A stretch of DNA of 64,000 bases. Origin: Deltaproteobacteria bacterium (GTDB taxonomy: Bacteria; Myxococcota_A; UBA9160; PR03). Position numbers and translations under genes: made by a program. The notes beneath the pieces were generated by a model. It was given only the letters and a program-made list of their open reading frames with translations, was not told the origin of the DNA and made no database searches. This document shows positions 15,741-20,819 of the stretch, one piece after another. Positions within the stretch are counted from its first letter, which is position 1. Each line of letters opens with the position of its first letter. The stretch lies in NCBI GenBank assembly GCA_035063765.1, contig JAPSFT010000005.1, positions 124,001 through 188,000 on the forward strand, in the 5' to 3' direction.

Positions 15741-16133
15741 ATGGCGGATCGGGAGCGATGGCTGCGCGCCGCGCTGCTCGCCTTCGGGGTCTCGTTCCTG
15801 CTGGTCTATCCCCTGATGGTGTTCTGGCCCTCGGGATGGGCCTGGGAGCCGCGCCAGCACGAGTACGAGCTGATGATGGTCGGCATCTACGGGACGCTCG
15901 GCGTGTTCCTGCTGCGCGCTGCGCGCGAGCCGGCGGCGCACCGGAGCCTGATCTGGTTCACGGTCTGGTCGAGCCTCGTGCACGGCGGGATCATGGCCGT
16001 CCAGGCTGTCGTCGACCCGGCGGAGCACGGCCACCTGCCCGGCGACGTGGCGGCGCTCTTCCTGGTCGGGGCCGTGCTGGCGAGCCTCATGCCGCGCGGC
16101 GGCGCGGGGCGCGAGGAGCCGCGCGCGGCCTGA
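15741..16133 (+). CDS. Small four-helix membrane protein (DUF6632-like)
   Basis: The protein has 130 residues and starts at an ATG preceded by GAGGAGGAA. Four hydrophobic helices are visible, with conserved-looking motifs Y-G-T-L-G-V-F-L-L-R-A-A-R-E-P and H-R-S-L-I-W-F-T-V-W-S-S-L-V-H-G. That pattern recalls the DUF6632 family of small bacterial membrane proteins, whose function is unknown. It stands alone on the plus strand, divergent from the GH32/43-like gene and convergent with the acyl-CoA dehydrogenase 9 bp away. I cannot assign a role. Confidence 0.75.
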   Translation: MADRERWLRAALLAFGVSFLLVYPLMVFWPSGWAWEPRQHEYELMMVGIYGTLGVFLLRAAREPAAHRSLIWFTVWSSLVHGGIMAVQAVVDPAEHGHLPGDVAALFLVGAVLASLMPRGGAGREEPRAA

Positions 16134-17508: not shown

Positions 17509-18054
17509 GTGATCCTGCAGGACGTGGTCTGGACCCTCGCGCTGGTGGGGATCGGGCTGGTCGCTCTCGTCTTCGCGGCCGTCGTCCTCCAGGCGGGCAG
17601 GCCCGCAGAGGAAGCGGCGGCCCGCCGCTTCGCCGCCCGGGCGCGCCGGCTGCAGGCCGGGCTCTTCGCGGTGCTGCTCGCCGGCTTCGTGGCGGGGAGC
17701 TGGGCCACCCTGCATCGCTTCCCGATCCCGCCCCAGCACGGCACGGTCGCCGCGCGACAGGTCGTGGAGGCGATCGGACGCCAGTGGTCGTGGCAGATCA
17801 CTCCCGCCACCGTGGAGAGCGGCAGCGTCGTGGAGTTCCGCGTCACCGCTGCCGACGTCAACCATGGGTTCGCACTCTACGCGCCCGGTGGTCGGATCGT
17901 GACCCAGACCCAGGCGATGCCCGGCTACACGAACCGGCTGCTGCACACCTTCGACGAACCCGGAACCTACACGATACAATGTCTCGAGTACTGCGGTATC
18001 GGCCACGGACCCATGAAGGCCACCCTCCAGGTGGTCGCACCGGCGAGCGAATGA
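17509..18054 (+). CDS. Heme-copper oxidoreductase subunit II with CuA site (sNOR/oxidase type)
   Basis: The protein has 181 residues from a GTG with AAGGA upstream. Two N-terminal membrane helices (about 7-28 and 50-70) are followed by a periplasmic cupredoxin domain. A complete CuA ligand set is visible: H119 in V-N-H-G-F, then C158, E160, C162, H166 and M169 in C-L-E-Y-C-G-I-G-H-G-P-M. The short length and this motif resemble ba3-type and sNOR-type subunits II rather than the longer caa3 form. It accepts electrons, presumably from a cytochrome c or cupredoxin, and passes them to subunit I. Its stop overlaps the next start (ATGA), so the subunits are translationally coupled. Confidence 0.88.
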   Translation: MILQDVVWTLALVGIGLVALVFAAVVLQAGRPAEEAAARRFAARARRLQAGLFAVLLAGFVAGSWATLHRFPIPPQHGTVAARQVVEAIGRQWSWQITPATVESGSVVEFRVTAADVNHGFALYAPGGRIVTQTQAMPGYTNRLLHTFDEPGTYTIQCLEYCGIGHGPMKATLQVVAPASE

Positions 18055-19556
18055 CCATGGCATCCCTCACCCTGTATCCGGACGAGGAGCAGCTCACGGG
18101 CGGCGAGCGGGTCACCTTCGACCTGTACATGATCACGGCGGTGATCCTCTTCGTGCTGCTGATGCTGGTCGGTCTGACCATGCGCATGACGCAGGCGAAA
18201 TGGCTGCCCGTGCCGGCCGGCCTCTTCTACGAGCTGTTGTCCCTGCACGGGATGGGCATGGTGGGAACCATGTCCCTGGCCACGACCGGGGTCATGTGGT
18301 TCTTCCTGCGCAGGTACGTGCGATTGCACCTCTGGGCCTTCGCCGCGAACTACCTCCTGTTCCTGCTCGGGTTGCTCTGCGTCGTCCTCTCGATCTTCGC
18401 GGGCGGCTACGGCGCGCTGTGGACCTTCCTCTATCCGCTGCCGGTCCGCGGGATGGGGCTCTGGACACCGGATACCGCGGCCCTGTTCATGCTGGGGGGC
18501 CTCCTGATCGGAACCGGCTCGCTCCTGTTCTACCTCGACGCAGCCGCGGGCATCATCGCGGTGCACGGGAACCTGGGCCGTGCCCTGGGCCTGCCGTGGC
18601 TGCTGGGCGGCCGGATCGACCCCGACCATCCGAAGGCGGTCGTGGCCAGCACGCTGGTGATCATCGCGAACTCCCTGGGCATCCTGGCCGGCGCCGTCGT
18701 GCTCGTGATGAGCCTGATCAACGTCTTCTATCCGCAGGTGACGCTCGACGCCCTGGTGGCCAAGAACCTGATCTACTGGTTCGGGCACATGTACATCAAC
18801 GCCACGATCTACATGGGCGTGATCGCCGTGTACGAGCTCCTCCCGCGCTACACCGGCAAGCCCTATCCGATCTCGCGCCCGTTCCTGTGGTCGTGGGCGG
18901 CGAGCACCCTGTTCGTGATCGTCGTCTTCCCCCACCACCTGCTCATGGACTTCGCGCAGCCGCGCTGGCTGTCGACCGTGGGGCAGGTGGTCTCCTGGAG
19001 CGCGGGGTTCCCGGTCTTCCTGGTGACCGCCTACGGCGGCCTCGTCAACCTCCATCGCTCGGCTATCCGCTGGACGATGCCGTCGCGACTCCTGGTCCTG
19101 TCCCTCTTCGGGTGGGCGGCGGGCATCGTGCCGGCCATCCTGGATGGCACGATCCGCAACAACCTGGTGATGCACAACACCCAGTGGGTGCCGGGGCACT
19201 TCCATTTCTACCTGCTGATCGGGGTGCTCGCGATGGTGCTGGCGCTGCTCTTCCACGTCATCGGCAGCCGCGGGCAGGCAGCGCCGGACTCGCGCGCCGA
19301 CCGGCTGGGCTTCCCGGTCTATCTGGTCGGGGGCCTGGCCTTCGCGCTCGCGTTCCTGGGCGGTGGCCGCGCGAGCGTGCCGCGGCGCATGGCCGAGCAC
19401 CTGGAGGAGTGGACCTTCACCGACAAGATCGGATCGATCGCCGCGCTCCTGGTCGTGCTGGCGATGGTGTCCTTCGCGATCCGGATCACGGTCGGCCTGT
19501 GGAGGGCCTCGCCGTCCAGGGATGCCGGTGCCGGCACTACGGACGCTGCTGGCTAG
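18051..19556 (+). CDS. Heme-copper oxidoreductase subunit I, nitric-oxide-reductase-like
   Basis: The protein has 501 residues and about twelve membrane helices. All six metal-binding histidines are present: H66 (L-H-G-M-G-M) and H385 for the low-spin heme, H383 (G-H-F-H-F) for the active-site heme, and H246, H295 and H296 (P-H-H) for CuB or its equivalent. Spacing matches cytochrome oxidases. The oxidase motif H-P-E-V-Y is replaced by H-M-Y-I-N, so the tyrosine four residues after H246 is N250. The K-channel lysine region reads S-A-G-F-P-V-F, with proline in the lysine position. Loss of both residues, and the gene order (subunit II, subunit I, SenC, membrane protein), recall the sNOR cluster of ammonia oxidizers. 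I infer NO reduction; a divergent oxygen reductase remains possible. Confidence 0.85.
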   Translation: MTMASLTLYPDEEQLTGGERVTFDLYMITAVILFVLLMLVGLTMRMTQAKWLPVPAGLFYELLSLHGMGMVGTMSLATTGVMWFFLRRYVRLHLWAFAANYLLFLLGLLCVVLSIFAGGYGALWTFLYPLPVRGMGLWTPDTAALFMLGGLLIGTGSLLFYLDAAAGIIAVHGNLGRALGLPWLLGGRIDPDHPKAVVASTLVIIANSLGILAGAVVLVMSLINVFYPQVTLDALVAKNLIYWFGHMYINATIYMGVIAVYELLPRYTGKPYPISRPFLWSWAASTLFVIVVFPHHLLMDFAQPRWLSTVGQVVSWSAGFPVFLVTAYGGLVNLHRSAIRWTMPSRLLVLSLFGWAAGIVPAILDGTIRNNLVMHNTQWVPGHFHFYLLIGVLAMVLALLFHVIGSRGQAAPDSRADRLGFPVYLVGGLAFALAFLGGGRASVPRRMAEHLEEWTFTDKIGSIAALLVVLAMVSFAIRITVGLWRASPSRDAGAGTTDAAG

Positions 19557-20145
19557 CCTGCTGATCCTGGCGGCGGGCCTTGCGACGCTCGCGGGCGCCA
19601 CGGACGGATTCCGGGCCTTCACGGCGGAGGCCGCGCGTCGCCTCGAGGTGAGCGAGCACCCGCGCGCGCTGCCGGCGGCGTCGCTGGAGACCGCGGGCGG
19701 GCAGGCGATCGACCTCGCGAGCCTGCGCGGGCGCTGGCTGCTGGTGGAGTTCATCTTCACCCGGTGCACCACGTACTGCTCGGTGCAGGGCCGGGATCTC
19801 GCACGACTCCAGGATCGGCTGGCCCGCCCGATCGCAGACGGCCAGGTCGCGCTGCTGAGCATCAGCTTCGATCCGGCCCACGACGGCCCGCCGGAGCTGG
19901 CTGCCTATCTGCGCCACGCGGGAAGCCACGGCGCGGGATGGATCGCGGCACGCCCGGCCAGCGCCCCGGATCTCGAGACGCTGCTGCACGCCTTCGGGGT
20001 GACGGTGATTCCCGATGGGATCGGTGGCTACGTGCACAATGCGGCGATCTCGGTGGTCGATCCCCGGGGCCGACTGGTCGCGATCATGGACTGGGACGCA
20101 CCGGCCGTGGCCGAGCAGTACGTCCTGCGCAGGCTGCCCCGATGA
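19522..20145 (+). CDS. SCO1/SenC copper chaperone
   Basis: The protein has 207 residues: a membrane anchor (about 8-28) and a periplasmic thioredoxin-like domain. The copper ligands of the family are present: C82 and C86 in T-R-C-T-T-Y-C and H172 in G-G-Y-V-H-N. L-S-I-S-F-D-P-A-H-D matches the family motif S-I-D-P-x-x-D. It delivers copper to, or maintains the thiols of, the CuA centre of subunit II. The start overlaps the end of the subunit I gene by 35 bp and its stop overlaps the next gene (ATGA), so it belongs to the same operon. SenC follows the two oxidase subunits in sNOR-type clusters. Confidence 0.88.
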   Translation: MPVPALRTLLASLLILAAGLATLAGATDGFRAFTAEAARRLEVSEHPRALPAASLETAGGQAIDLASLRGRWLLVEFIFTRCTTYCSVQGRDLARLQDRLARPIADGQVALLSISFDPAHDGPPELAAYLRHAGSHGAGWIAARPASAPDLETLLHAFGVTVIPDGIGGYVHNAAISVVDPRGRLVAIMDWDAPAVAEQYVLRRLPR

Positions 20146-20819
20146 TGGCGTCGCCGCACGCGAGGCCGCGCCTCGCGGTGGGCCTGTGGCTCGCGCTCGC
20201 GCTGCCGCCCGCCCGGCACGCCCTCGAAGCGACGATGACGCTCCACATGCTGGTCCAGATCCCCCTGCTCGCACTCGCCGGATGGTGGCTCGCCCCGTGC
20301 CTGCCGGCTCGCGCGAGGGAGAGCCTGGACGCGTGGAACCACCGCGGCATCAGCGGCCTCCTGCTCGCCTCGCTCGCCGCGATGGTCTGGATGCTGCCGC
20401 GGGCGATCGATGCGGCCCTGGAGGAACCGTGGGTCGCGATCGCGAAGTTCGTCGGCGTGCCCCTCCTGATCGGCCTGCCGCTGGCGCTGAGCTGGCCGCG
20501 GACCGGCTTCGTCGTACGGGGGGTCTTCCTGCTCGAGGTCGTCGCGACGGCGTTCCGGCTGAGCCGGCTCTACCTGCTCGCCCCGGCACGGCTGTGCAGC
20601 AACTACCTCGCGAGCGACCAGCAGCGGCTCGGGCAGACGCTGCTCGGGATCGGGGTGGCGACGAGTCTGTGGATCGCCTGGAGGCTCGTGTGGGGGCGCT
20701 CCGGGCTCGAAGCCGCGCGCACGGGCGCCGAGAGCGGTGGGCGTGCCGCGCAAGGCGATGCAGCGGCTCCGCCCGCCGGCGCGCGTGCGCGCCTGCACGG
20801 ATCGGGTCAGGGTGCGTAG
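20142..20819 (+). CDS. Membrane protein, fourth gene of heme-copper operon
   Basis: The protein has 225 residues and about six hydrophobic segments. It starts at the first of two ATG codons, overlapping the SenC stop by 4 bp. An early M-T-L-H-M-L-V-Q-I-P-L-L-A-L-A-G segment and a later R-L-C-S-N-Y-L-x-x-D-Q-Q-x-L-G-Q stretch look conserved, but I cannot name the family with certainty; the position matches the unnamed 'orf1' that closes norSY-senC clusters. The last ~40 residues are low-complexity. Its 3' end overlaps the convergent monooxygenase gene by 13 bp. Probably needed for assembly or stability of the terminal reductase. Confidence 0.75.
   Translation: MMASPHARPRLAVGLWLALALPPARHALEATMTLHMLVQIPLLALAGWWLAPCLPARARESLDAWNHRGISGLLLASLAAMVWMLPRAIDAALEEPWVAIAKFVGVPLLIGLPLALSWPRTGFVVRGVFLLEVVATAFRLSRLYLLAPARLCSNYLASDQQRLGQTLLGIGVATSLWIAWRLVWGRSGLEAARTGAESGGRAAQGDAAAPPAGARARLHGSGQGA

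Follow-up and report, generated by a model that had tools for sequence, protein, structure and literature searches.

Does the heme-copper operon at positions 17509-20819 of the window, i.e., of the whole 64,000-nucleotide stretch of DNA that was analysed, encode an oxygen reductase or an NO reductase? The sequence-only reading had described a four-gene operon here (subunit II, subunit I, SenC and a membrane protein) and favoured NO reduction with CuA electron input in a non-nitrifier setting. The window lies on a contig of 295 kb, within a host genome of 4.4 Mb that is 96% complete and belongs to an order that includes a Myxococcota MAG.

Four overlapping reading frames on the plus strand (norS, norY, SCO/SenC and orf1) together with Pfam matches confirmed the operon. 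The first gene, norS (17509..18054), begins with GTG and encodes subunit II, with a membrane region at its N-terminus followed by a CuA cupredoxin domain (COX2, 2.9e-9). It is followed by norY (18051..19556), whose ATG lies within an ATGA overlap with norS and whose product is subunit I of the heme-copper superfamily (COX1, 2.5e-44). The SCO/SenC copper chaperone gene comes third (about 19522..20145; SCO1-SenC, 1.2e-13); its start at 19522 is the probable one, in a frame already open from 19363. Its CxxxC motif and histidine (C112, C116 and H202, numbered from 19432) were at least 97% conserved among 85 homologs. All NCBIfam matches of the operon proteins fell far under their cut-offs, which is unsurprising for a protein outside both the aa3 oxidases and the reach of the NOR models. 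Upstream of the operon, beyond a divergent acyl-CoA dehydrogenase gene, a DUF6632 gene (Pfam, 1.6e-40) was observed at 15741-16133.

The last gene, orf1 (20142..20819), encodes a mostly helical membrane protein and is found downstream of the SCO gene in practically every relative. In the Pfam search of the window proteins, no family scored above the cut-off for orf1. Its predicted model was confident and helical (pLDDT 89.9), and the comparison of this model with the PDB gave no clear fold match (best Z of 6.2 over 60 residues). Residues G47, W83, P86, D90, G111, C152 and Q160 were invariant. We also considered a CtaG-type factor, a candidate which was rejected on a profile-comparison probability of only 1.5% and on the lack of a clear PDB match; a Caa3_CtaG gene is included in the sNOR cluster of Thermomicrobium. 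The product of orf1 is probably an assembly factor dedicated to NorSY.

With regard to the active site, the six metal-ligand histidines reported for NorY (H66, H246, H295, H296, H383 and H385) were all present. In a conservation set of 86 sequences, one pair of which represents the same contig, H246, H295 and H296 were found in 86/86, and the other histidine ligands in all sequences that cover the place. The motif H246-M-Y-I-N250 stands where oxidases have HPEVY, and Asn250 occupied the position of the cross-linked tyrosine in every one of the 86 relatives, in agreement with the claimed absence of that residue. The A- and B-type references carry HPEVY or HxxVY, so NorY is devoid of the cross-linked tyrosine motif of these oxygen reductases; the eNOR references have Gln at this position, and with Asn there NorY does not bear the eNOR hallmark. 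According to a published table, the residue is Asn in sNOR, Gln in eNOR, Asp in gNOR and Asn in Bacillus CuANOR (PMC8756737, Table A4). The full CuA set described for subunit II was likewise recovered in NorS, where the ligands H119, C158, E160, C162, H166 and M169 were each at least 97% conserved among 84 homologs.

Three tyrosines near the site were compared. Tyr248, within the HMYIN motif, varied among relatives (Y, F, V, I or L) and is therefore no stand-in for the lost tyrosine. Tyr254 (window 18810-18812) lies at N250+4, one helical turn below, and was invariant in 86/86 sNORs, while the A, B and eNOR references have no tyrosine there; we regard it as a candidate sNOR-specific functional residue. 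As regards the lack of a conserved proton channel ascribed to sNOR, Tyr261 is a tyrosine kept at the position of ba3 Tyr248. The K-channel lysine was absent from NorY under either alignment used, as had been claimed, but the proline assigned to its position depended on the alignment: pairwise and profile alignments to aa3 set P321 against the lysine, whereas in the multiple alignment with A- and B-type proteins P321 faces a conserved proline and V325 faces Lys/Thr. The missing lysine does not discriminate in any case, since B-type oxidases are also without it. A predicted NorY model built from 55 sequences (pLDDT 87.7, pTM 0.90) adopted the heme-copper subunit I fold, with a Z of 38 to aa3 chains.

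Clustering with bona fide oxygen reductases was examined in a superfamily tree of 46 proteins, and NorY fell instead into a 28-row sNOR clade (support 100/100). This clade takes in the copies from Nitrosomonas, Nitrococcus, Ruegeria and Thermomicrobium, and lies apart from the A-type, B-type, eNOR, cbb3 and c/qNOR references. Since the join of sNOR with B-type and eNOR was poorly supported (89/45), we make no claim on the origin of sNOR. The assignment to sNOR thus holds by the Asn residue, the gene order and the tree. Judged by its sequence, NorSY is an sNOR, an ordinary member of an already known family whose biochemistry is unsettled.

We consider it likely, with a probability of about 0.78, that the operon encodes a two-subunit, CuA-containing NO reductase together with a copper chaperone and a probable assembly factor, NO being the presumed substrate and the electron donor a presumed one as well. 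The best reading of the reaction would be a CuA-fed conversion of 2 NO to N2O. Electrons from a periplasmic donor, either cytochrome c or a cupredoxin, would enter at the CuA of NorS, then reach a low-spin heme bound by H66 and H385, and finally the heme/CuB site, where H246, H295 and H296 would bind CuB, H383 the heme, and two NO would be joined to N2O. The SCO protein may load the copper. With Asn250 in the place of the tyrosine that forms the radical, four-electron O2 cleavage should be unfavourable. The earlier proposal of NO reduction with CuA electron input is thus supported as to the sNOR assignment, while the reaction itself stays putative, and an oxidase alternative has been published (PMC6967387).

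The gene content of the host fits NO reduction by NorSY, since it comprises an eNOR, a cNOR-like NorB, nirK, a clade II nosZ and a separate aa3-type oxidase with HPEVY. The nirK is fused to cytochrome c, and its presence with clade II nosZ indicates that NO is likely produced and that N2O could be consumed. A search for amoA gave no match in the host genome and was positive in the Nitrosomonas control, which bears out the non-nitrifier setting. A need for the sNOR does not follow, as the host has other NO-consuming enzymes. Co-occurrence of nirK within the order was discarded as an argument for NO use; with sNOR in only 3/80 genomes it is uninformative.

Some of these other genes were of note in their own right. 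The eNOR (G000:C9:163810-166264) bears the Gln motif GHMSQQ, with a SCO gene downstream and, upstream, a subunit II that is 51% identical to the Defluviimonas subunit. The cNOR-like NorB (G000:C8:187790-189013) reads HLWVEGVWM in its active-site region, with Met in place of the second glutamate; the Aquabacterium relative has HLWVEGVWE. A qNOR-like gene outside the window (G000:C17:84280-86607) bears published NO-dismutase signatures (Nod-like): His560 is replaced by Asn (GISHNFYW) and the catalytic Glu by Gln (FSTLQV), and in the quinol site His328 is replaced by Thr and Glu332 by Arg. About 2 kb upstream of this gene is the nirK with the fused cytochrome c. Near-full-length Nod-like copies occur in seven further genomes of the order, at 70-90% identity and with the Asn and Gln kept; in at least three of these (G002, G076 and G008), nirK is on the same contig.

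The alternative that survives best, unlikely as we judge it, would make NorSY a terminal oxidase of high affinity that reduces O2 despite lacking the cross-linked tyrosine, with Tyr254 as one possible substitute donor. Transcripts of the N. europaea sNOR rise under O2 limitation, an induction which was read by its authors as pointing to a possible high-affinity oxidase (PMC6967387), and no activity of a purified sNOR was found in the sNOR literature cited here. The CuB/heme ligands and the CuA are all oxidase-like, and the invariance of Tyr254 across the sNORs, together with its absence from the references, would also suit this function. Nevertheless, loss of the tyrosine marks the NO reductases of the superfamily (N in sNOR, Q in eNOR, D in gNOR; PMC8756737), and the host owns an aa3-type oxidase with the intact motif. 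We therefore hold to NO reduction; that NorSY physiologically reduces O2 with Tyr254 as the alternative donor is distinctly doubtful, and would, if true, make a Tyr-less heme-copper enzyme a true oxidase. More improbable again is an NO/O2 reductase, bifunctional or serving detoxification, that would act under microoxic conditions and have no fixed respiratory role, a possibility consistent with the eNOR, cNOR-like and Nod-like genes beside the sNOR and with the multiple NORs per genome that are common in Bacillota denitrifiers (PMC11388526).

The distribution of the family was surveyed in 84,980 species genomes, in which 526 relatives were found. The best 80 of these were 47-81% identical, and practically all of them, Nitrosomonas and Nitrococcus included, kept the order norS-norY-SCO-orf1, so the arrangement is not due to chance. 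This also upholds the resemblance noted earlier to the cluster that ammonia oxidizers carry, norSY-senC-orf1 (PMC4940428). Among these best 80, the closest copies were gammaproteobacterial (Rhodanobacter and others), and close copies were also present in MAGs labelled Gemmatimonadota and Armatimonadota. Beyond nitrifiers, sNOR is on record in Bacillota (PMC11388526) and Methylomirabilis (PMC8906906), and the Ruegeria sNOR is a plasmid copy outside nitrifiers. Consequently, the occurrence of sNOR in a non-nitrifier carries only weak novelty. On another plasmid, pW43B of Parasedimentitalea marina (L007 3908-5379), an unannotated norY is divided between two frames; either a mutation or a sequencing error would account for this apparent frameshift.

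Within the host order, sNOR was patchy: it was present in 3/80 genomes, and was not found in the genus mate or in four other members of the family. One of the carriers (G012) has its copy on a 9,054-base contig matching JADLGR010000065.1, which is Myxococcota in tree taxonomy. In the tree, the host NorY pairs with its sister, the copy of a gammaproteobacterial MAG to which it is 80% identical, and GC falls to 66-68% over norY. Just upstream of the operon, the acyl-CoA dehydrogenase is 85-90% identical in the order relatives G004 and G012, and just downstream an FMO-like gene is 77% identical in the family member G005. The patchiness, together with the closeness to gammaproteobacterial copies, suggests transfer; in the simplest reading, the host probably acquired the operon by horizontal transfer from a source of gammaproteobacterial type, which is the presumed direction. 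A binning error that placed the operon of a gammaproteobacterium in this genome would also match the sister copy, the GC dip and the sNOR-free genus mate, but it is highly improbable given flanking genes native to the lineage, a contig of this length and another order member that has an sNOR of its own, at 70% identity.

These results add an sNOR host from an order related to Myxococcota, with a copy that is patchily distributed there and was probably transferred. The usual annotation of sNOR genes is cytochrome c oxidase subunit I, so NO reduction in hosts of this kind would be undercounted. N250, Y254 and Y261 offer sharp mutational targets for the unsettled NO-or-O2 question of sNOR.

Compared with known systems, eNOR and bNOR (CuANOR) are heme-copper NO reductases that likewise lack the tyrosine. 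For CuANOR, which lies outside the references compared here, the published table (PMC8756737) lists Asn, while eNOR differs by its Gln (GHxxQQ) and its own clade. The norSY-senC-orf1 cluster of Nitrosomonas and Nitrosospira (e.g., NE0683-86) shares with the present operon the gene order, Asn, full CuA, SCO and orf1; NorY identity is, however, about 50%, and the present host is without amoA. The megaplasmid sNOR of Ruegeria pomeroyi has the same norS-norY-SCO-orf1 order and an Asn motif (HVFIN), but is 46% identical, and there a formate/nitrite transporter gene comes after the four genes. Lastly, the sNORs of Rhodanobacteraceae, Lysobacteraceae, Steroidobacteraceae, Burkholderiales and Gemmatimonadota MAGs show mostly 58-81% identity and the same four-gene order, the sole difference being the host lineage.
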